Positions 10,086-54,540 of a stretch of DNA of 64,000 bases are shown in pieces. Position 1 is the stretch's first letter. Each line of letters starts with the position of its first letter. The notes beneath the pieces were generated by a model. That model was given only the letters and a program-made list of their open reading frames with translations, was not told the DNA's origin and made no database searches. Source of the DNA: a virus. The position numbers were made by a program, and so were the translations under genes. The DNA lies in IMG/VR virus record IMGVR_UViG_3300025577_000001, positions 1-64,000 of that record; one strand, 5' to 3'.

Positions 10086-13000
10086 TTACGCCGGTACTAA
10101 GACTTTTCCTGTCGCCTGAAGATTGACTAGGTAGGCTTGAGTCTCGTGGCTCAAACTTCTAAACGCCGCAGTCCACAATTCGGGTGATTGAGCCCGCATT
10201 ATTGCCCTAAGTTCGGTAAATTCCTCGTCGGTGGTGACCATTTCTATCAGGTCTGCGATGTCTTTAACGTCGCCTGGGTCTAATTTCATGGTGTGCTCCG
10301 GCGCGCCCTGATAAACGGGTTCGATTTGGGGTGTGATTCGGTCTGATTCGAAGTCAACAGATGCGTCTATATCTCTATTATAAGGATCTGTTGTCTTTTT
10401 ATCTGTTGTCTTTTCTGGCTGTAAGTCGCTCTGCGACTCAGCTTCAGCGTTTAGGTCATTTTTCGCCTTTTCAATCAGTGCTTCGTCAGCATCCTGACGG
10501 ATAATCGCAAACTTTTCGTAGTCGATAATGGGTGTTTTGACCCCATCTTTTTCGATGATCAGCTTATCGACGAGGCCATATTTATGTACCTGGCGACCGT
10601 CGATAGTGACGCGCCCTTGTGATTTGACATCGAGGTGCATCGTCTTTAGTAATGACTTAATCAAAGTGATGGGCTTTGACACTTCGATGTCGTGAGTATC
10701 GGGCGCGTCGCCTTTACCAAAGATGACGATCTTCTTCCCGACCGTGATATTTAGTACAGACTTCACATCGTCGGCCTGAGCTTTCATCTTTTCTATGATG
10801 CTAACGACCTGGGGAGATACTTCGGTGATGACGGCATCAGGCTTTGATAGATGCGCCAGCAATGCGGGCACGCCTAGATCTTCCTGCATCGCCACCTTAT
10901 GAGACTGAGCAGTGCGCAAGATGTCATCAGCCCAGGTGCGACCGCGCTTAGCGCCCTGTTGAGCCTTGGCTGCATCGCGCTTCGCGGCCTGCTTAGCACC
11001 TAGTGATAGATATAGGCGGCTGAGTAGTTTTAGATATAGGCCGTTCTTTTCCTCTTTTATTAGCTCAGGTGTGACGGCATCGGCGTCTATGCCGTATCGT
11101 TCACAGGCTTTGGCCTTGGTGATCTGCTGTCCTTCAGTGCGGGTGCGTTGGTGCTTTGCTTCGAGTGTCGGTAGATCGACGTTATCAATGGGGACAACGC
11201 TGGTTTCTTTATTGTTGATATCAGCGCTTTGGTCACGGCAGGCTTTTAGCTCAGCCTTGAATTCTTTTTTCTCGATCGGGTCCATCGCCGCCCATCCGGG
11301 AATGAATGCGATGTCTACGGTGTAGTTAGCCGCGCGCAGCAGGTTAAAGAAACCTTCAGCATAAGCGCGGGCCTCGCCATTGCGCTTCGCCTCCATCCGC
11401 ATCGCATAGCCTTGCCATAGACGGCCCACATTGCCGCCAACGAGTAAAGTGTCATCGGGTAGGTAGAATACGTCAGCATTGACCAAAGATCTTATATAGG
11501 CTTCCCATCGGTTGTTCTTGCCAGCGGCTAATAGAGCGTGGTCGGTTGCGCCATTGCCGTAAGGTGCGGGCACAATCTCTTTGCAGAATACGAAGCGTTT
11601 GATATTGGTAGGGCGATAGCGCGCCGTGGACTGCATACAATCGTCAATGCTGCCCGCGCCATTCTCAATCTGAAAAAAGCAATCAAAACCGCCTTGCTCA
11701 AAACTAATACCAGTAGAGCAAGCGTTAGTGTAGAGCACGTAATCATATTTGCCGAATATTTCAGCTTGACGATCGCGTCTTACGTCGGAATCAGGATGAT
11801 TGAGATAAGAAAGGATGCGGACAGATTCGACGCGGTCTTTAGTCTCCACGCCGCCGTCAGCGTCAACAGCGATCGAAATTTCGCCAGCCTTGACTTCTAT
11901 ATATGTATTCGGATTGGATGGATCGTTGCAGGTCTCAGAGTCTAATACCAAGCCTTTTAGATGTGGGTAGCGCTGCTGTGCCCATCGTGAGATTGTCTGA
12001 GTGCTATAGAGCGAGGTGTCTTGTTGGCCGCTTAGCTTGGCGATAAAGCGCTCACCATTCTGCATCGCCTCGTCCATGCGGAAGAATACTTCAGCCGCTT
12101 CAGCGCAGCGATAGACGCGGCCCATGTCGCGCTTATGAGTATTGACGACGACCAAGACCTGAGCCATCGGAATGCCCATTGTGCGGGCGTAAGTTTCAAT
12201 ATGTAGATCGCTTAGGCCCGCACTCATCAAGAGCACTTGCTTTGAGCGATGCCCGGCCTTAGATATATTTTCCAGGCACTCAGTACGGACGTGCTTGATA
12301 GCGGTCTGCGCGGCGACCATGTGATCGGCGACCTGATCGGCTTCGTCGAAGATAGTGCGACAATGAGCCGGAACGTTACCGGTAAAGTGAGCCTTACTCT
12401 TCATGTGGCCACTGTCAGCCGTTAGGACGGAGCCTTCAAAGCTGCCATACATTTCCAGCTCTTGAGTCACGGGCAAGCCGTACATTTCGCCTTGTGATTC
12501 GCCTAATGCATTACGATGCGTGACGGCCAAAGTATAGGGCGAATCTTCTTGAGCGTGAGCCCAATCAAGATATCCCTTGATTAGCTGAGTTTTACCCGTG
12601 CCGCAATCGCTAACAAGGGCGATCAACTTATAGTCGCTGAAGGCGGAAAACAATTCGTCAGACGAATGAGGCAGATAACCATAGTCGCGTTCAAAGCCAG
12701 GCGTTGCCGTCGCGCCCGACTTGCGAGTACCGGGCAGCTCGATAGATGGAATCGTTAGCGCCGGGCAACGCAATGCAAATTCATCCCATGCCAGCAATTC
12801 ATATTCGACTGGCCCGATCTCGTCGATGTCGGTGCCATTACCCAATGCATCTTTCTTGGCCATCTGGCCGTACCAGATGACGCGAAAGCTGATACCGGCT
12901 GCATCGCACTTTTTGGCAAGTGCCTTAACGCCATTTAGAACATTACGGTTCATGACCGCGCCGCCGTCAATAGCTAGGCGTAATTCTCTTACGCCGAATA

Positions 13001-13889
13001 ATTTGCACTGCGACTTGATTTGCTTCCATGACGTTGATGCCCAGTGCGAACCGGCGACGCCTAGTACAAAGCGACCCAGGTCAATGCCGTGGATATCAGC
13101 GCGCTGTAGTGCCACCCAAGGCTTAAGAAAGCCTTCGGTAATAGTCGCGTGCGACGCGTCCGAACCTTCGACTGCGTGAACAGTAATGGGATTTTCGTCA
13201 TGGCGACGAAGCTTAGCATTACCGTCTTTACTTAGCCAAAGATATTTCGCACCGCTCCAACCGGTCGCAACCTGTGCGCCAAGATGGACAGATGCGATGC
13301 CGCCGCCGGGAGCTTTTCTATACTGACGGCCAACAATCGCCATGCCGGACGGCCCGGCATATCCGTTATCGTCCCACTTACCAGGCAACGCCCGGCGATC
13401 AGGATTGTCGCCTTTTTCAATACTGAACAAAAGACCTTCAGTTGTCGCCTGGCGGATTGCCTCAGCGCTGACGCCGCGCGCCTGCGTCTTCGCGCGCCAA
13501 GCATCTTCAAGGCCGTTAGCCCAGGCCCAGGCCCGCAGGTTCTCGTCAACTTTCGGTTCTTCTGATTTCTTTACGCCAGGCAATTCAAAAGACTTAGCCT
13601 TGGCTGTTTGAGCAGGCGCGGGCAGCTTAGACGATAAAGAGCCAGCCGCGTAAGTCGTCTGTGCCCTCTTACTCTTATCCCACTTAGCCGCCGGTATCCA
13701 TGTGCCGGAGCCTGCGCGATCGGTGCCCTTGAATCGGTAACCATTAGAGCTTTCGCCATGATGGCCATCGCGACGTACCCAGCAGCTAATAAAACCGCTT
13801 TCCCATTCGCGGCACTTCTTACCTGAATTCTTCTTAGTGCGATCGGCCCGGCATACTGGGCAATCTGATAGAGACTTAAACTGAGCCAT
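10086..13889 (-). CDS. CyRepA1-like plasmid replication protein (primase-helicase)
   Basis: This 1267 aa replication initiator has an N-terminal zinc-ribbon-like segment (CPVCRADRTKKN, further Cys near 26 and 36). A DUF3854/Toprim-like domain follows, with ITEGFLKPW (about residue 253), LRLAIDGGAV and GTDIDEIG. A helicase core has Walker A VSDCGTGKTQL (about 433), Walker B TIFDEADQ (about 515), and a late motif with an arginine finger (SIDDCMQSTARYRPTN). This order matches the large Rep proteins of cyanobacterial plasmids. The C-terminal region (about 1160-1190, KTTDKKTTDPYNRDID) is encoded by a copy of the seven-copy repeat element, so that stretch is probably not ancestral. The start follows a GGAGG site and directly abuts a short upstream reading frame. 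Confidence 0.8.
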   Translation of the reverse strand: MAQFKSLSDCPVCRADRTKKNSGKKCREWESGFISCWVRRDGHHGESSNGYRFKGTDRAGSGTWIPAAKWDKSKRAQTTYAAGSLSSKLPAPAQTAKAKSFELPGVKKSEEPKVDENLRAWAWANGLEDAWRAKTQARGVSAEAIRQATTEGLLFSIEKGDNPDRRALPGKWDDNGYAGPSGMAIVGRQYRKAPGGGIASVHLGAQVATGWSGAKYLWLSKDGNAKLRRHDENPITVHAVEGSDASHATITEGFLKPWVALQRADIHGIDLGRFVLGVAGSHWASTSWKQIKSQCKLFGVRELRLAIDGGAVMNRNVLNGVKALAKKCDAAGISFRVIWYGQMAKKDALGNGTDIDEIGPVEYELLAWDEFALRCPALTIPSIELPGTRKSGATATPGFERDYGYLPHSSDELFSAFSDYKLIALVSDCGTGKTQLIKGYLDWAHAQEDSPYTLAVTHRNALGESQGEMYGLPVTQELEMYGSFEGSVLTADSGHMKSKAHFTGNVPAHCRTIFDEADQVADHMVAAQTAIKHVRTECLENISKAGHRSKQVLLMSAGLSDLHIETYARTMGIPMAQVLVVVNTHKRDMGRVYRCAEAAEVFFRMDEAMQNGERFIAKLSGQQDTSLYSTQTISRWAQQRYPHLKGLVLDSETCNDPSNPNTYIEVKAGEISIAVDADGGVETKDRVESVRILSYLNHPDSDVRRDRQAEIFGKYDYVLYTNACSTGISFEQGGFDCFFQIENGAGSIDDCMQSTARYRPTNIKRFVFCKEIVPAPYGNGATDHALLAAGKNNRWEAYIRSLVNADVFYLPDDTLLVGGNVGRLWQGYAMRMEAKRNGEARAYAEGFFNLLRAANYTVDIAFIPGWAAMDPIEKKEFKAELKACRDQSADINNKETSVVPIDNVDLPTLEAKHQRTRTEGQQITKAKACERYGIDADAVTPELIKEEKNGLYLKLLSRLYLSLGAKQAAKRDAAKAQQGAKRGRTWADDILRTAQSHKVAMQEDLGVPALLAHLSKPDAVITEVSPQVVSIIEKMKAQADDVKSVLNITVGKKIVIFGKGDAPDTHDIEVSKPITLIKSLLKTMHLDVKSQGRVTIDGRQVHKYGLVDKLIIEKDGVKTPIIDYEKFAIIRQDADEALIEKAKNDLNAEAESQSDLQPEKTTDKKTTDPYNRDIDASVDFESDRITPQIEPVYQGAPEHTMKLDPGDVKDIADLIEMVTTDEEFTELRAIMRAQSPELWTAAFRSLSHETQAYLVNLQATGKVLVPA
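10351..10424 (-). repeat. Seven-copy iteron element, copy 1 (inside rep)
   Basis: This copy contains the core AGATATAGACG-like degenerate right arm, the TATAAT box and two AAAGACAACAGATC-type iterons on the minus strand. The distal iteron found in other copies is absent or decayed. It lies inside the rep reading frame and adds residues there while keeping the frame open. Confidence 0.75.
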
Positions 13890-13979
13890 TTATACGCCCT
13901 CCTGTAGTGTCTGTGAGGACGCTGAAAAAACAAATTGCCCTTTCCCGCTCCGGTCGTTTATACTTGTCATGTCAGCCAT
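13890..13979 (-). CDS. Leader peptide upstream of rep
   Basis: This 29 aa frame begins at MADMTSINDRSGKGQF. Its TAA stop directly abuts the rep ATG, and the rep ribosome site (GGAGG) lies inside its last codons. The arrangement is like the tap leader of IncFII-type plasmids, where translation of a short peptide opens rep translation. A longer frame of 109 codons is open upstream but would run through the putative promoter. Assignment as a regulatory leader is inference from the arrangement. Confidence 0.5.
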   Translation of the reverse strand: MADMTSINDRSGKGQFVFSASSQTLQEGV

Positions 13980-14086
13980 TGGGTTTACTTCTTTTACTTC
14001 TTTGCTGTCACCCGTCCATGCTTTCGTCGGCTGTGGACTCATATACAACACCCGAAACCCAGGAAATCCCATTTCTGGGTTTTTTG
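13935..14086 (+). ncRNA. Candidate counter-transcript (antisense) RNA controlling rep
   Basis: On the plus strand a -35-like TTGCCC (13935-13940), an 18-nt spacer and a -10 TATACT (13959-13964) would start an RNA near 13971. The RNA would end at an intrinsic terminator (stem AAACCCAG-GAAAT with its complement at 14055-14082, loop CCC, then six T at 14080-14085). The product, about 115 nt, is fully antisense to the rep leader mRNA, including the leader-peptide start. This is the classic geometry of plasmid copy-number RNAs (CopA/RNAI type). No gene reads this way here. Confidence 0.6.
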
Positions 14087-14093
14087 TTGGCGA

Positions 14094-14183
14094 TGTAAAC
14101 TTATCCACAGAGCAAACCTGAACGCTGACTACATAGTACTCTATCACGATTGCAATTGCACGAAATGCAGCAATATATGTAAA
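14094..14183 (-). promoter_or_regulatory. Tandem TTTACAT motifs upstream of rep
   Basis: Two minus-strand TTTACA boxes (14178-14183 and 14094-14099) carry the TTATTTACAT and AAGTTTACAT context found at many promoters here. The -10 boxes are weak (TGCAAT for the distal one), so the exact start is uncertain. Confidence 0.4.
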
Positions 14184-14235
14184 TAAGTTCGCTATTCGCC
14201 AGTGTGATTTGAATCGCAATCCATTCTAAAACATA

Positions 14236-14265
14236 TTGACATAGGGTCATCAAGGGCGCTACATT
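14236..14265 (+). promoter_or_regulatory. Sigma70-type promoter
   Basis: TTGACA (14236-14241), an 18-nt spacer and TACATT (14260-14265) lie just upstream of the gene starting at 14292. Confidence 0.6.
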
Positions 14266-14291: not shown

Positions 14292-15005
14292 ATGGTAACA
14301 TCAGCAACGGCGGCGAAAAAGAAGCAAAGGACACGCAAGCCGCGCGCGTCCAGACGAAAAGTGAAGCAACAAAAAATGCAGAAATCTTTCACGCCTGAGA
14401 TCGGCAGCCGTCGCGCTGCGAGTATGGGTGTCAATTCTGACGGCAGCATTCCGCCGTTCGATCAGCTACCGGGCGAAGTAAAACGCACGGCCCTTGAATA
14501 TCTCATCAAGTCGACGGTGCCAAAGATGCGGCCTGATTCGACTATTTCAACCGAGCAGCTTCAGATCGTCGCAGGCTGGGCTAACGAATATCAAGAGGAA
14601 TTAGAAATATTGCCGGAGTCGCCGGTAAGAATTCGATATCTAGGCATCCGTCAGCTATTCACAGAGCTACACAAATTAAAGCTAGTGCAAGAGCATCGGC
14701 AGCGTCAAAGCAATCTACGGCAGGTCGTAGCTGAGTGCACGGGTTATGAAGCATTGCCGACGGCGGGCAGTCCTGAATGGCCGATCGCGCCATCGCTCTT
14801 GTACATTGGGTCAACGCTCGCCACGTTAGCGGGTGAGCAATCGACAGTCCGCCCGGCGATTCCTTTACTCGGTGCGATGGCCGTACTGAAGTATCAAGGA
14901 ATCTTAGTCGCGGGCATTCAGCCTGGGCTTAGCGATGAGCAAATCTACGCCAGTGCATACGGCCCAAGGCATCTGAATTATTTTAAGAAGCCGCGACGCC
15001 GTTAA
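14292..15005 (+). CDS. Basic hypothetical protein divergent from rep
   Basis: This 237 aa protein starts at ATG 14292, preceded by GAGG at 9 nt. An in-frame earlier ATG at 14277 overlaps the presumed transcription start region. The first 35 residues are extremely basic (KKKQRTRKPRASRRKVKQQK), which suggests nucleic acid binding or a nuclear-like tail. The rest is helical with YLIKSTVPKMR and LQIVAGWANEYQEELEIL. It has its own sigma70 promoter and ends at a long hairpin. It may be a replication or copy-control accessory, but no family was recognised. Confidence 0.6.
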   Translation: MVTSATAAKKKQRTRKPRASRRKVKQQKMQKSFTPEIGSRRAASMGVNSDGSIPPFDQLPGEVKRTALEYLIKSTVPKMRPDSTISTEQLQIVAGWANEYQEELEILPESPVRIRYLGIRQLFTELHKLKLVQEHRQRQSNLRQVVAECTGYEALPTAGSPEWPIAPSLLYIGSTLATLAGEQSTVRPAIPLLGAMAVLKYQGILVAGIQPGLSDEQIYASAYGPRHLNYFKKPRRR

Positions 15006-15017
15006 GGCTTATCGTGT

Positions 15018-15070
15018 CCAAGCACAAGAAAGCCCGATCAGTCATCCTGATCGGGCTTTCTTGTGCTTGG
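15018..15070. terminator. Long 24-bp hairpin between converging genes
   Basis: Arms of 24 nt (starting CCAAGCACAAGAAAGCCCG) flank a 5-nt loop. It separates the plus-strand gene from the minus-strand helicase unit. The T tract is poor. Confidence 0.6.
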
Positions 15071-15126
15071 ATTCAGCGCCAGCGCAATAGACAAAACAGC
15101 GGACTACCTTGGCCCGCTCTGTATGT

Positions 15127-21094: not shown

Positions 21095-22138
21095 ATGTCT
21101 AAAAACTTGTTTGATTTGTGGGATATTCCACAGCCCGTGGACGGCGGTGGCGATACCGAAGAGTCAGCGCCGCGCCGCCCAAAAGCGTCGCCTGGGCGCA
21201 GCCCTAAACCTAAGTCGTCGAAAGGCGGCAAAGGAATTAAGGGCATCTGGGCGAATGTTCAAGGCCGAGTAAAGAATGAGACGGCTAGCATTAGCGACGG
21301 CATCAGCATAAAGGTGGTGATGGGTCTTTTTGGCCTGAGCATCCTTTTGCAAGTTGCGGGGCAAATGACCGGCGTCAACTGGCTGCTATCAGTCGGCGAC
21401 GTCGTGGATTGGTGCGGCACTATTGCGCTATTGCTTTTCTTGTTCCAATGGGGCAAGCGCAATCTAGGCAGTATGCCCGCCTTCCTTAGCAGTGTTCTAG
21501 GCTTCATCGTTCTAGGGATGCTTGTCATTCTGTTTTGGCAATCGGCCCACATCTACGCCGACTTGGGCCGCAAGCTGGCAAGTTCTAATGCGGTCAGCGT
21601 TGGCAATCTGGGCGCGTCTTATCTTGGCGATAATCCATTAGGTCGGATGGCCGCTGCATTCTTGATGGTCGTCGCCAGTATGCTGCAATCGCTAAATATG
21701 AATTTTTGGGGCCTCTTGTTCGTGCTCCTATTCTGTGTGATTCAGTTCGCTGAAGTCGCACCGATGATCGTCCGGTCGTCGCCGCTATTCATGGAGAGGC
21801 TGATAAAGCAGTTCAATCGATTCAAAAAGCTCTCGCCCACTGGCCAAGAATCCGAAGCGGTATCAAGGCTTATCGATCAGCACAACGATTATTTTGAATC
21901 ATTCCTAACTGGCCTTGGCTACGCGCAGATTGCGGCATACGCGATTGATGCACTTGTCTGCCTTTACGCCGTGCCGTTGATTAAGCCTGGCACGACGATG
22001 ATGACGTTTGTCCCTAGCGATATCGCTTGGCTTGGCATTGTTCGCATCGCCATCACCTTATTCCTGTTCGCTCAAACGACTTGGATTTATATCCAAGTGC
22101 GCAAGGCTCACGCTATCTTCTCGGGCCGCATCGTATAG
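21095..22138 (+). CDS. Multi-pass membrane protein (target homologue of CRISPR spacer 5)
   Basis: This 347 aa protein has a charged, basic N-terminal tail of about 75 residues (SPGRSPKPKSSKGGKG), then about six transmembrane helices, for example SILLQVAGQMTGVNWLL, IVLGMLVILFW, LLFVLLFCVIQFA and ALVCLYAVPLI. It has no signature of a known transporter family. A gene for a membrane-anchored P-loop ATPase follows within 80 nt, so the pair may form a membrane complex. CRISPR spacer 5 matches 21718-21751 with five third-position mismatches only, so a homologue of this gene is the apparent target. Confidence 0.65.
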   Translation: MSKNLFDLWDIPQPVDGGGDTEESAPRRPKASPGRSPKPKSSKGGKGIKGIWANVQGRVKNETASISDGISIKVVMGLFGLSILLQVAGQMTGVNWLLSVGDVVDWCGTIALLLFLFQWGKRNLGSMPAFLSSVLGFIVLGMLVILFWQSAHIYADLGRKLASSNAVSVGNLGASYLGDNPLGRMAAAFLMVVASMLQSLNMNFWGLLFVLLFCVIQFAEVAPMIVRSSPLFMERLIKQFNRFKKLSPTGQESEAVSRLIDQHNDYFESFLTGLGYAQIAAYAIDALVCLYAVPLIKPGTTMMTFVPSDIAWLGIVRIAITLFLFAQTTWIYIQVRKAHAIFSGRIV

Positions 22139-33804: not shown

Positions 33805-35586
33805 CTATGGCGCTAGCCTCGCTTTCTTGGCTCGGCTGTCCTCGTACCACTCTGCAATAGCTGGCACCCATGCTTTGAAGTGCGGCCAGATAAGTTCACA
33901 CAATTGCTGACACTCTAGCTGAGCATCCGCCTTCCATCTCAGATCTAAGAGATGCATTAGCGACCGCGCATTGGCCGACATTACCCAGTGCTGCCGCACG
34001 TCGAAAGGAATCAGGCCGCGCGCGTGCTCCTCGCTGAAGCCATCGTCAATTACGCGCTTACGGTATCGGTGCGCAGATTCAAGGCAATACTCTAAGTCTG
34101 AATAACGCTGGGCTTCGCTATAGCTATAGCGCTTCCCTTCACGATCGCGATAGTCTCCAGCGGGCCGAAGATAAAACACCTCGTCCACTTCCCTAAACCC
34201 TTTCGAAACGTCGATAATGCGCTTCCCGGTATAGCGCCCGGAGTTGTGGACGACTACTCCGGCTGCCACAAAGTTGTGGTGAGGAGATTTCATTACTAGG
34301 TCGTATGTTGGCTGAGCGCCAACATACTCGATTGAGACAATGGCTTTTTGATGGGCACAAAGTGGGTTTTGTTTGCCAGATTTATGATGGCTGATATGGC
34401 AGGAAGCGCAAAGCACTTCAAAATTATCAAAATCAAAAGCTAGGTCAGGCCGCTCTTTCACTGGCTGGATGTGATGGCAATGCAGGTTTTCTGTTTGATG
34501 ACAGTGATTGCACTCAGCTCCTTTTAATTTGAGAATTTCAGCGCGATTGTACTTGAGCCAGTTATAAGCTCTTTTCTCAGGTGCCAAGTTTTTCCATGAC
34601 GGATGATCTATGCCTGACAAAATTAATCCATTCTTGACTCGGTGCTCTGTGACAGACTTTGCATGATTGCTGCGCCTGTCTCGTTCGATCTGGCTTAGAT
34701 TAATAGAGTACTTTAAGCCTTTGTTCCATGGCTTTTTATCCCAAGTTAGTTCATGCTTATATGCCCACTTTTTGACGGATTCAGTAGAGCAGCCAGCGAT
34801 CGCAGCAACGCCTTTAGGTGTTAGCCCATTCAAAAAGTGAAATCGCAGCCATTCTTTGTTTTGATACGTTTTGTCCGCATCCTTCAAAGGCTGACCGTTC
34901 ACCATTACCTTTGAGCCAACGCTGAGCTGAGCTAGAACCCGCCAACCGTAAGGTGTGTATATTTTGTGATTCTGCGTACATTCAAGCGTCTTCCCGTCTT
35001 CTAAAGTCACCTTATAGACAGGATTTATTCCGTTGAAAACTACGTCTTCGATATAGTTTGTTGTGAAAGTGTTTGAAGCTTCATTAAGGCTGCGTACTCT
35101 CATTTTTCTAAGGCGAGTTTTGCAGTCGCGCCTGTATTCACCAGGGGCTTCTCCATTCCGACCTTTGATATGACGGGTGCGCACTGCTGCTTCTCCGTTA
35201 TGCCAAAGGTCATACAAATCACCTATTGTCTTTTTGAGCTTTTGGGACGTTTGCCCATGCTTGTCAACAAAGGTCACCTCTGTATCGCCTGCTAAACACT
35301 GCACGTCAAAAGACAGATGGCGATGGGTTCGGACTTGCTGCATTGTCGAATGCGGAAACCATCCACAATTCAGTACAATTTGAGGATTTTCAATGCTGCC
35401 AAAGTGGCCGCGTCCCCCGCCTAGCAATCGCTTGACGGCTATAGCGCCAGCGCGTTCCTCGCTTGGCCACTGCTCGCGCTCATCGAAGACAAAGCCTTCG
35501 CTGTAGTCTTGGTGCATCGCCGCGTAAATGGTCTGCTGAGGATTTGGGGTCTGGCTGATAACTTCGACTCTAAATCTATTATCCAT
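33805..35586 (-). CDS. thyX: Flavin-dependent thymidylate synthase ThyX, intein-containing
   Basis: This 593-residue precursor starts at ATG 35586, which overlaps the upstream stop and has a GGGAGG site. The N-extein (96 aa) has NPQIVLNCGWFPHSTMQQVRTHRH and ends LSFDVQ; the C-extein (145 aa) begins SGRYTGKRI. Joined, these give the ThyX motif RTHR-x7-S, with the Ser as the +1 extein residue, so the intein (352 aa) interrupts the flavin/dUMP-binding motif. The mature enzyme of 241 aa makes dTMP from dUMP with methylene-tetrahydrofolate. Along with dcd it provides nucleotides for phage DNA. Confidence 0.9.
   Translation of the reverse strand: MDNRFRVEVISQTPNPQQTIYAAMHQDYSEGFVFDEREQWPSEERAGAIAVKRLLGGGRGHFGSIENPQIVLNCGWFPHSTMQQVRTHRHLSFDVQCLAGDTEVTFVDKHGQTSQKLKKTIGDLYDLWHNGEAAVRTRHIKGRNGEAPGEYRRDCKTRLRKMRVRSLNEASNTFTTNYIEDVVFNGINPVYKVTLEDGKTLECTQNHKIYTPYGWRVLAQLSVGSKVMVNGQPLKDADKTYQNKEWLRFHFLNGLTPKGVAAIAGCSTESVKKWAYKHELTWDKKPWNKGLKYSINLSQIERDRRSNHAKSVTEHRVKNGLILSGIDHPSWKNLAPEKRAYNWLKYNRAEILKLKGAECNHCHQTENLHCHHIQPVKERPDLAFDFDNFEVLCASCHISHHKSGKQNPLCAHQKAIVSIEYVGAQPTYDLVMKSPHHNFVAAGVVVHNSGRYTGKRIIDVSKGFREVDEVFYLRPAGDYRDREGKRYSYSEAQRYSDLEYCLESAHRYRKRVIDDGFSEEHARGLIPFDVRQHWVMSANARSLMHLLDLRWKADAQLECQQLCELIWPHFKAWVPAIAEWYEDSRAKKARLAP
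34243..35298 (-). other. ThyX intein with HNH homing endonuclease
   Basis: This 352 aa insertion starts with the splice Cys (CLAGDTEVTFVD), has the block-B-like CTQNHKIYTPYGW, and ends with HNFVAAGVVVHN before the +1 Ser. In the middle is an HNH homing nuclease (CNHCHQTENLHCHHIQPV with a distal CASCHISHH), preceded by a helix-rich DNA-binding part. It looks complete, so both splicing and homing are likely active. Confidence 0.9.
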
Positions 35587-35861
35587 TAGTTGATCGCCTC
35601 CCATTCTTGAGCGGGCGCAGGCGCTTTCCAGGGCGTCATGTTATGCGCGATTGGCTTGGGCTCATATCGCTCGTATTGTTTCTCTACGTCCTGCCCTGGC
35701 TTCGTATAGGCAATAGACGCAAACGGCAGCGACAAAGCGGCGCGGTATTCATCATTAAAGAATACGCGGCCTTTAAGCTGCCATAACGGCAGGCTATAAA
35801 ACTGCATCTGCCAGCGGCCCCATGCGTACTGATCGAATAATTCAAACTTTGAATGTTTCAT
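35586..35861 (-). CDS. Hypothetical protein upstream of thyX
   Basis: This 91 aa protein has many aromatic residues (FELFDQYAWGRWQMQFYSLP). Its stop overlaps the thyX start by 3 nt (TAATG), so the two are translated together. It may act in nucleotide metabolism or as an unrelated early protein. No family was recognised. Confidence 0.5.
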   Translation of the reverse strand: MKHSKFELFDQYAWGRWQMQFYSLPLWQLKGRVFFNDEYRAALSLPFASIAYTKPGQDVEKQYERYEPKPIAHNMTPWKAPAPAQEWEAIN

Positions 35862-51531: not shown

Positions 51532-51609
51532 GGGTTCTATTTTAAGGGAGTTTGGCCGGTACTGTGCAGCCTTTGGTTCGTTGTGTGGCTTGCTCTGAGA
51601 GTATGGCCC

Positions 51610-52288
51610 GTTTCAATCCCTAAGAGGGTTTCACTATCGTTGCAGCGAGGTGAGGTTTTTCATTTAAGCGACCTCCATCGAGTTTCAATCCCTAAGAGGC
51701 TTTCACTATCGTTGCAGCATTCTTTCCACTGGTGGGCATCAAAGGACGCCCTGTTTCAATCCCTAAGAGGCTTTCACTATCGTTGCAGCAGGATTCATGG
51801 GCGAGCAATAGCAAAGAGCTAGCCGTTTCAATCCCTAAGAGGCTTTCACTATCGTTGCAGCGGCCAAGAGGCTTTCGATATCATCGCAGGCGAGAGTTTC
51901 AATCCCTAAGAGGCTTTCACTATCGTTGCAGCGTTTGTCCTTCTGTTTTGTGTGATTCAGTTCGCTGTTTCAATCCCTAAGAGGCTTTCACTATCGTTGC
52001 AGCTAGTGTCGAGCCACGATAGCGCGATCGCCTTGCAGTTTCAATCCCTAAGAGGCTTTCACTATCGTTGCAGCAATAAGGACAAAAACTAATGACTGAC
52101 ATCACCTACGTTTCAATCCCTAAGAGGCTTTCACTATCGTTGCAGCGAAGGCAATAGCAGGTAATGATTTTATCGTTTGTGTTTCAATCCCTAAGAGGCT
52201 TTCACTATCGTTGCAGCTTTTATTGACCCAGACCCAAGAACCAACCCAGAGGTTTCAATCCCTAAGAGGCTTTCACTATCGTTGCAGC
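51610..52288 (-). CRISPR. CRISPR array: 10 repeats, 9 spacers
   Basis: The array has ten 37-nt repeats. On the plus strand they begin GTTTCAATCCCTAAGAGG and end CTATCGTTGCAGC. Starts are 51610, 51682, 51753, 51825, 51896, 51967, 52038, 52110, 52181 and 52252. Spacers are 34 or 35 nt. The leftmost repeat has one changed base (GGGTTT for GGCTTT), which marks the trailer, so the leader is on the right and transcription is leftward, same as the effector. Read that way the repeat ends GGGATTGAAAC. No cas1/cas2 genes are in the window. Spacer 5 matches a gene at 21.7 kb; spacer 4 resembles the repeat. Confidence 0.97.
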
Positions 52289-52289
52289 G

Positions 52290-52804: not shown

Positions 52805-54472
52805 TTAATCGCCACGTTTTTTCATGTTCTTCGCCGCGTTCACATCGGCATTTTGCTTCACCAAGTGTAGGCCACATTTACTATTCAGGCAAAAGAAAGT
52901 GTCTTGCTTAGCGCGATCGCCTTTCTCGCTGCAAGCATGGCATTCTTTGGACGAGTTACGCGGCTCAATATCGGCCCAGTTCTTGCGAGCACCGCTCAGG
53001 CGCTGCTTTGTTTTGGCCTTAAGATCGCCCATGCAAGTATGCCGCATCGCGTAGTTTAGCCCGGTCTTAGCTGCTGCTCCGTTTGACTCCCAATGCGAGC
53101 CGTCTGCTGATAGCTTAGGGTCTACGCCTTTACTGAGATTGCCAAGCTGTGTATTTTCCCAATACAGAGCATCATAGGTGCGGGCCAATCGGGTAGCGAG
53201 CTTATGATTGAACATGTTGCTAGAGTTCGCGCCGCGTTCGTGGAGCCGCGCGATTTTACGTTGCAACTTAGCTTCGTTCTTTGTGGCCTCACGCTTGCCC
53301 ATGCGCCACGATAAGCCAAGCCTTCGATCATTGGCTTCCCTCATCCCATCAAGCCTAGATTGCCATGACTCGATATGTACAGCAATCCGTCCGCGTGAAG
53401 CATTCGGGTTAAACAAAGCGCCATTGTCTAGCGCAACAATCTTCTTAACGCCTGGATCTACGCCTGCTCTATGGCCAGTCAGCTTTGATGCAGGAGATGC
53501 TAGGTATTGGTCAATCTCAATTTGCATTTTTAGCTCATCGAGTGCAGACACTGCTGCTTGATAATCTGCTGATGCGTCTAAGGCTGCTTGCTGAGCGGCT
53601 TTCCCTTTGATGCCTTTCTTGGCGGCTGCACTAGCTTTGTTGCGTCGGGAGGTCAGCACGGGCTTTAGCGCTTCTGATGGCGTTGCTGCCGAGATACACA
53701 GATACCAGCCGCTAGGTTTTTCGGCAAGCTTAGATGAACGCGGAACAAAGTTGCCTAACCGCTTTTGCCAAGAACGATCGCACGGAGTTACCTGCATCCC
53801 GCACATCTCAAAGATGCCGTTTTTTAACTTTGGCGGCGTCTGCGCATTGCTGAAAGTAGAAACGGTATTCTGTCGCCCGTCCTTGAACCTTGGTTGATGC
53901 CGCGCAGTCAGCTTTGCGTCCTTGTACGCGTCCCACGAAGCCGCAAAATCTTTGATTAATCCGCCAATGAAATCAGAATGACAGCTTATTTCGCTGAGTC
54001 CTTCAGCCGCTCTCACAGACGACAGCCAGCCTTTTGCGTCAAGATTTTCGGGGCGCTTTAGTTCTCTGCCGTGGAGATTAATGTATTCATGAGCTACGGG
54101 CGCGATCGCTTCATAAGGCCGATCGCCTTTTACAAGCTTCGAGCCATGCTTAAAGCGTTCTTCCCAGGTGCCGCCTTTATTGATGCGATAGGCCAGCGTA
54201 ACAGTTTCATCTTTCGCCCAATATGGCCCACCTGTAGCAATCTGGCAGGCTGCGCCAGACCATGCATTTCGCCTGTTAAACCTAAGCGGTGCCAGAATGC
54301 AGCCATCAAGGCTTACGCCATTCTTTGCGGCCCACTTGTACCAGTCAAGACAATGATTGTGCAGTGCGACCCATCGGCATTTGTTCCACAGCCATTCAAG
54401 CTCTTGTCGCTGGCCAGGGATTTGGCGCAGTGATTCAGCATCTAGAGCGACTTTTATTTTTACAGTTTTCAC
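52805..54472 (-). CDS. Compact Cas12-like (type V-U/TnpB-related) effector
   Basis: This protein of about 555 aa starts at GTG 54472 (MKTVKIKVALDAESLRQIPG) with AAGGA upstream; an earlier ATG at 54517 lies in the promoter, so it is rejected. The RuvC-I motif GVDPGVKKIVALDNG has D339, RuvC-II is YWENTQLGNL with E439, and RuvC-III is NADVNAAKNM with D543. A zinc finger (C511/C514, C528/C533) sits between II and III. A bridge-like helix (KNEAKLQRKIARLHERGANS) precedes II. The N-terminal half is longer than in TnpB and contains a wedge/REC-like part. It is adjacent and co-directional to the array. It looks nuclease-competent, unlike Cas12k. Likely V-U subtype, but a stand-alone TnpB-like nuclease cannot be excluded by eye. 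Confidence 0.8.
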   Translation of the reverse strand: MKTVKIKVALDAESLRQIPGQRQELEWLWNKCRWVALHNHCLDWYKWAAKNGVSLDGCILAPLRFNRRNAWSGAACQIATGGPYWAKDETVTLAYRINKGGTWEERFKHGSKLVKGDRPYEAIAPVAHEYINLHGRELKRPENLDAKGWLSSVRAAEGLSEISCHSDFIGGLIKDFAASWDAYKDAKLTARHQPRFKDGRQNTVSTFSNAQTPPKLKNGIFEMCGMQVTPCDRSWQKRLGNFVPRSSKLAEKPSGWYLCISAATPSEALKPVLTSRRNKASAAAKKGIKGKAAQQAALDASADYQAAVSALDELKMQIEIDQYLASPASKLTGHRAGVDPGVKKIVALDNGALFNPNASRGRIAVHIESWQSRLDGMREANDRRLGLSWRMGKREATKNEAKLQRKIARLHERGANSSNMFNHKLATRLARTYDALYWENTQLGNLSKGVDPKLSADGSHWESNGAAAKTGLNYAMRHTCMGDLKAKTKQRLSGARKNWADIEPRNSSKECHACSEKGDRAKQDTFFCLNSKCGLHLVKQNADVNAAKNMKKRGD

Positions 54473-54502
54473 AGCTCTAGGTTCCTTTTCGTTTGTGTGA
54501 AT

Positions 54503-54540
54503 AGCATAGCAAAACATAGCGCGGTCTGTAAACGAGTTTT
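54503..54540 (-). promoter_or_regulatory. TTTACA-family promoter of the effector
   Basis: Minus-strand GATAAAACTCGTTTACAG context: TTTACA 54527-54532, an 18-nt spacer, TATGCT 54503-54508. Transcription would begin at about 54496, upstream of GTG 54472. It has the same design as other phage promoters. Confidence 0.6.

Follow-up and report, generated by a model that had tools for sequence, protein, structure and literature searches.

The stretch of DNA analysed here, hereafter the window, comprises bases 1-64000 of a 69,128-base IMG/VR virus record, and the region of interest separates the 5′ end of a replication gene (rep) from a divergently transcribed gene (Table 1). The product of the divergent gene gave no match in Pfam, PHROG or NCBIfam. 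The promoter candidates of the two genes overlap. Downstream of the divergent gene, a perfect 25-bp inverted repeat with a 5-nt gap (15017-15071) lies between convergent genes and is probably a two-way terminator.

Table 1. Genes and predicted or candidate elements in and around the rep leader (positions in the window).
Feature	Position	Strand	Description
rep	10086..13889	minus	1267 aa, CyRepA1-like primase/helicase-type replication protein
Leader ORF	13890..14042	minus	50 codons from ATG 14042; 29 codons from ATG 13979
Anti-SD hairpin	13894..13922	minus	predicted 8-bp stem, 13-nt loop, pairs the rep SD AGGAGGG
Candidate antisense promoter TTGCCC-18-TATACT	13935..13964	plus	9/12 consensus matches, predicted start ~13971
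Terminator-like hairpin with T6	14055..14085	plus	intrinsic type; dG -12.9; ends no plus-strand gene
Candidate antisense RNA	13971..14086	plus	~116 nt; inferred from promoter and terminator
Candidate rep promoter TTGATG-19-TAGAAT or ATGACC-16-TAGAAT	14223..14253	minus	start ~14216; consensus match only
Candidate promoter of divergent gene TTGACA-18-TACATT	14236..14265	plus	10/12 consensus matches
Divergent gene	14292..15005	plus	237 aa, basic N-terminus

When we compared Rep with the NCBIfam model NF042913 (CyRepA1 plasmid replication protein), its score was 195.1 bits, the curated cutoff being 200, and aligned to CyRepA1 members it showed 22-27% identity. A tblastn search matched 86 plasmid records, with cyanobacterial plasmids among those named, at about 22-26% identity; none of the 50,697 records of a phage collection was matched. 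No Pfam family was found for the protein, PHROG replication families gave weak matches, and its CPVC...C N-terminus, read by eye, is common to the Rep proteins of Pseudanabaena plasmids. Rep thus appears to be distantly CyRepA1-like, just under the family cutoff. Scans of viral contigs with rep, terminase, a Dda-like helicase and a capsid alignment yielded no phage relatives of covariation grade; the rep alignment recovered only 2 and 7 distant viral loci, and 80 distant loci in genome contigs.

This plasmid-type rep occurs in the same virus genome as capsid, portal, terminase and sheath genes. The capsid protein is 38-43% identical to the capsids of seven Nostoc, Anabaena and Dolichospermum phages, and profile scans of the ORFs identified portal, terminase, tail sheath and baseplate proteins in the window; on these grounds the virus is a 69-kb cyano-myophage related to the Nostoc phages N-1 and A-1. 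The earlier note had taken it for a phage-plasmid, a status that we reject given the N-1/A-1 lineage of its capsid relatives and the lack of a ParA (no PF13614 match in the whole 69,128-base record) or of a tyrosine integrase (no Phage_integrase match in the record). Pfam and PHROG scans of the ORFs tested likewise revealed no partition, addiction or plasmid-maintenance genes, and DNA_pol_B and DNA_pol_A had no match in the record; since the record may be an incomplete virus, the absences of ParA, integrase and polymerases are provisional. A study of N-1 and A-1 describes them as myoviruses with a plasmid-like DNA polymerase B and reports a CRISPR array in N-1 (PMC4916379). The capsid of the window virus is about 40-43% identical to theirs and it too has a CRISPR array, but its record holds a CyRepA1-like Rep and no PolB match. 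Other virus records with CyRepA1-type reps (L007, L095-L098, L008) would be better phage-plasmid candidates: a tyrosine integrase was found in 6/7 of them, and a ParA-like match in 1/7 (the record of L008).

The CRISPR array of the window (51596-52289) has at least 10 units with the repeat GTTTCAATCCCTAAGAGGCTTTCACTATCGTTGCAGC at a spacing of 71-72, and beside it a 570-aa protein (52805-54517) carries OrfB_IS605 and Cas12f1-like TNB domains, so that a phage-borne array with a small type V effector is possible. One stretch at a spacer position (51933-51967) matches positions 21718-21752 in the phage's own gene 21095-22138 with 86% identity over 35 nt, as if it were aimed at the allele of a related phage. 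A scan for relatives using the CRISPR repeat returned 0 stretches. We also observed an imperfect palindrome of about 45 bp, AGACAACAGATCCTTATAATAG...CTGTTGTCT, with T-rich flanks, dispersed at 10351, 18789, 30216, 38942, 45459, 54676 and 63756; the copies are mostly intergenic and lie within longer repeat families. The scan with this dispersed element returned a single stretch (L100), which we discarded as a chance match inside a gene, in a record without rep. A 599-aa protein (33805-35604) resembles HNH endonuclease families in its central part and thymidylate synthase in its C-terminal part, a possible intein or homing-endonuclease insertion.

Immediately upstream of rep, the leader frame ends in a TAA that directly abuts the rep ATG, and the rep SD lies inside it. 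The 29-codon peptide frame of the earlier note does run from ATG 13979 to the rep start, but the frame is longer than had been described, with 50 codons from ATG 14042 and 109 codons if it is read from TTG 14219. The start signals of the peptide are weak: the SD of ATG 14042 (-3.8) is better than that of ATG 13979, but still weak. The codon usage of the frame falls at the 14th percentile of true gene pieces and at the 88th of wrong-frame pieces, and the peptide resembles neither the leaders of relatives nor Ssr7036 (109/500 shuffles score as well). The rep SD itself is strong (duplex -10.2), and an additional feature, new to this analysis, is its predicted locking by a hairpin within the leader ORF. 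Opening this hairpin would take 8.1 kcal/mol, a value as high in 2/43 other genes of the phage, whose mean is 2.8, and the pairing probability of the SD core is about 1.0 in the full predicted leader fold, which as a whole is mildly better than shuffles (z -1.84). An SD inside a hairpin within a leader ORF is the arrangement expected for translational coupling. In the tap/RepA coupling of IncFII plasmids, a ribosome on the leader opens the site and re-initiates.

On the opposite strand, the earlier note had described a promoter and a terminator delimiting a short RNA antisense to the rep leader, and both elements lie where it had put them. The promoter sequence is present, and its match is not above chance: there are 4 promoter-like sites in 3 kb versus 2.4 +/- 1.5 in shuffles, and plus-strand sites with at least 9/12 matches occur at 0.84 per kb, so that any given point has a chance of about 12% of such a site in the 150 nt upstream of it. 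Among the elements of that observation, the terminator is the strongest. Its stem, AAACCCAGGAAATCCCATTTCTGGGTTT at 14055-14082, has 11-12 pairs, with T6 at 14080-14085, and belongs to a class of compact hairpins (at most 30 nt, -12 kcal/mol or lower, T-rich tail) that is enriched in the genome, with 9 on the plus strand versus 0, 3, 2, 3, 1 and 3 in six first-order Markov resamplings. Six of the nine are intergenic, intergenic DNA being 21% of bases, and the present hairpin is the weakest of these six; an automated terminator scan did not include it in its plus-strand list. The RNA predicted at 13971-14087 folds more stably than shuffles (z -3.18; 0/200 as stable), and without the terminator the value is z -1.45, with 16/200 shuffles as stable. 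No Rfam family reached its gathering score anywhere in the window. The candidate RNA spans the start codon and the weak SD of the 50-codon leader ORF. A loop-arm pseudoknot of the IncB/ColIb type was also considered, and the 4 complementary bases found by eye are likely due to chance.

The same hairpin could instead act in the minus-strand rep mRNA, as an attenuator, a protein site or a part of the leader fold, its terminator-like look on the plus strand being a by-product of symmetry. It does score on the rep strand (14092-14049, dG -13.0), followed by a weak U-rich tail, TTGTATAT, and it forms part of the predicted leader fold. However, T6 adjoins the stem on the plus strand only, the rep-strand form requires an extended 44-nt structure, and the leader fold departs only mildly from shuffles, so we consider a role in the mRNA improbable.

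In order to place the locked SD and the leader ORF in a wider context, we surveyed the leaders of CyRepA1-type reps for both. There were 87 starting loci, in 74 of which the 5′ end was intact and the ORF had 500 codons or more, and five more viral loci were added for the coupling survey and for the antisense-only count described below. Loci with shorter ORFs or short upstream sequence, and near-duplicates among the leaders, were removed, the final sets going from 57 to 56 for the antisense-terminator survey, from 64 to 44 for the antisense-only count and from 62 to 44 for the coupling survey. As a joint criterion we took an SD of -6 or lower, an opening energy of at least 7 kcal/mol and an ORF 25 or more codons long with its stop at -3 to +30. 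This combination was found in 6/44 distinct leaders versus 4/239 control ORFs from the same loci (p 0.0013), the six being those of the window, L002, L003, L007, L093 (pSYSA) and L095; the criterion is partly post hoc, having been set after L002, L003, L007 and L093 had been viewed. With the criterion unchanged, it recurred in 3/12 later reps (L101, L104 and L106; p 0.0026), a set that was hand-picked and not random, with 11 non-Nostoc reps taken from the 40 listed of 232 matching records and the twelfth from one tblastn plasmid row. The signature is missing in 38/44 and 9/12 leaders and is a minority trait of CyRepA1-type leaders.

These counts also bear on the possibility that the region is an ordinary divergent intergenic one, in which frame, hairpin and promoter coincide by chance and rep is governed by promoter activity alone. 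A leader ORF taken by itself occurs in 50/239 controls, not significantly fewer than the 14/44 reps (p 0.08), and the distribution of opening energies as a whole is unshifted between reps and controls (p 0.17); moreover, the antisense promoter is at chance level and the codon-usage signal of the leader is undecided. A locked SD together with a leader ORF is nevertheless rare in controls and recurs in the independent set, and we regard mere coincidence as very unlikely.

Antisense-oriented terminators were also counted upstream of the same kind of reps. At -9 or lower, they were present in 20/56 reps versus 48/194 controls, and sense-strand terminators in 4/56 versus 34/194. For leaders with antisense terminators only, the counts were 18/44 versus 56/219 controls at -8 kcal/mol (p 0.03), 12/44 versus 39/219 at -10 (p 0.11), 11/44 versus 25/219 at -12 (p 0.02) and 9/44 versus 13/219 at -14 (p 0.004). 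Antisense-oriented terminators are thus moderately enriched upstream of such reps, unevenly across cut-offs, and the p values are optimistic since leaders within Nostoc share ancestry. In the later set an antisense terminator was found in 8/12 leaders and a sense one in 1/12 (p 0.004). The antisense-only counts exclude the window leader, since its hairpin is picked up on the rep strand as well. L095 and L099 have no antisense terminator, and L002 is not among the matches of the survey at -9 or lower.

The nearest relative of the locus, judging by Rep homology, is the ssr7036/asRNA1/CyRepA1 locus of pSYSA from Synechocystis sp. PCC 6803, which is nevertheless a distant homologue. According to the published work, its CyRepA1 (Slr7037) is the characterised family member, and an abundant asRNA1 of about 150 nt over the small ORF ssr7036 was shown experimentally; more ssr7036 transcript raises pSYSA copy number, also when ssr7036 carries a stop codon, and the mechanism proposed there is ColE1-like control of a primer with cleavage by RNase E (PMC9978351). 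Our scan, for which this locus served as a positive control, placed an antisense terminator inside ssr7036 (32380-32343, dG -15.8) that fits the published 153-nt asRNA1. Phage and plasmid have Reps that appear to belong to the same broad family, and they share a small upstream ORF, an antisense-oriented terminator-like hairpin in the leader and, from the present analysis, a strong rep SD predicted to be sequestered, with an ORF ending at the rep start. They differ in that ssr7036 ends 163 nt before rep, whereas in the phage a single leader ORF abuts rep and nothing like ssr7036 is present, and their Rep identity is about 23%. The strings 'coupl', 'leader' and 'Shine' are absent from the text of PMC9978351, as are 'phage' and 'leader' from the text of PMC10899382, and the literature searched contained no report of a CyRepA1-type rep in a phage or of coupling in the CyRepA1 family.

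We compared the pSYSA leader with that of a near relative, the Synechocystis B12 plasmid unnamed3 (L101), in which the rep annotation is split into three ORFs. Over its first 600 nt, rep is 96% identical between the two; identity is 93-95% in the stretch -600 to -400 and drops to 66-70% between -300 and 0. An ORF of about 56 codons ending at TAATG is kept in both plasmids, as well as a locked SD. Local divergence between conserved flanks is known for the incompatibility determinants of antisense-controlled plasmids, and the pSYSA/L101 leader would fit this pattern, without proving it. We had also considered a coupled cascade in pSYSA from ssr7036 to the leader ORF to rep (through a TTGA overlap), which was dropped as the ssr7036-like frame is shifted in L101 and the phage lacks a start codon for an upstream ORF of this kind.

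Another reading of the locus is that rep is coupled to its leader without any antisense RNA, the sole task of the plus-strand terminator being to shield the divergent promoter region from stray transcripts that run antisense to rep. The coupling signature and the chance-level promoter are what such an arrangement would give, and every main ORF between 615 and 13889 lies on the minus strand, leaving no plus-strand gene to the left of the hairpin. On the other hand, the characterised relative pSYSA makes abundant antisense RNA, and reps as a group have the moderate terminator enrichment described above; we find this reading somewhat unlikely.

Our preferred reading, which we hold tentatively and at a little under an even chance, is that a phage CyRepA1-like rep has its control leader here, with coupling and antisense control combined. 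The strong rep SD would be locked in its predicted hairpin, and the 50-codon frame crosses this hairpin and stops right before the rep ATG, so that leader-translating ribosomes would melt this structure and start again on rep. The plus-strand RNA, running from about 13971 to the terminator at 14085, would pair over the leader start codon and its weak SD, which may stop leader translation and lower Rep synthesis. In this phage, the output is more likely to be replication dose or timing than plasmid maintenance. The antisense RNA remains a candidate and an unproven one.

In IncFII plasmids such as R1 and R100, the antisense RNA CopA lies over the leader, the leader peptide tap ends at rep, and the rep SD is sequestered until the leader is translated. 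The likeness lies in the control logic; the Rep proteins are unrelated, Pfam, PHROG and NCBIfam scans having matched Rep to no IncFII RepA family, and the window has no Rfam match. The comparison is apt as a way of working, not as membership. The IncFII-like geometry put forward in the earlier note finds some support in the predicted locking of the SD within the leader ORF, which recurs in CyRepA1-type reps, and in the asRNA1 precedent; it is weakened by the chance-level promoter, by the nature of Rep, by the lack of an Rfam match and by scans that yielded no relative suitable for covariation. Its further proposal, an RNA-regulated copy number of a phage-plasmid, survives in a reduced form: Rep synthesis is probably translation-coupled and possibly antisense-regulated, in a virus whose phage-plasmid status is not supported. 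Extrachromosomal mycobacteriophage prophages offer another comparison, as they have RNA-based origins in which the RNA acts where RepA is lacking, beside parABS (PMC7157519). A noncoding RNA in phage replicon control is common to both (a candidate one here), but the window phage has a Rep and no ParA was found.

It is conceivable, if unlikely, that an IncFII-type logic governs the CyRepA1 replicons in general, those of pSYSA and of phages among them, with a locked rep start that is opened by a leader ORF and a leader that is gated by a fast-evolving antisense RNA. If this were true, the control of pSYSA, read by its authors as ColE1-like priming, would be recast; the coupling signature in pSYSA and other cyanobacterial plasmids offers an alternative to the published model of priming that can be tested directly. 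CyRepA1-based shuttle vectors could then have their copy number tuned through the leader. For the virus, it would mean that a cyanophage without detected lysogeny genes times its replication by a plasmid copy-control module, a plasmid initiator having been borrowed along with its RNA brake, and that antisense copy control may here serve replication timing.
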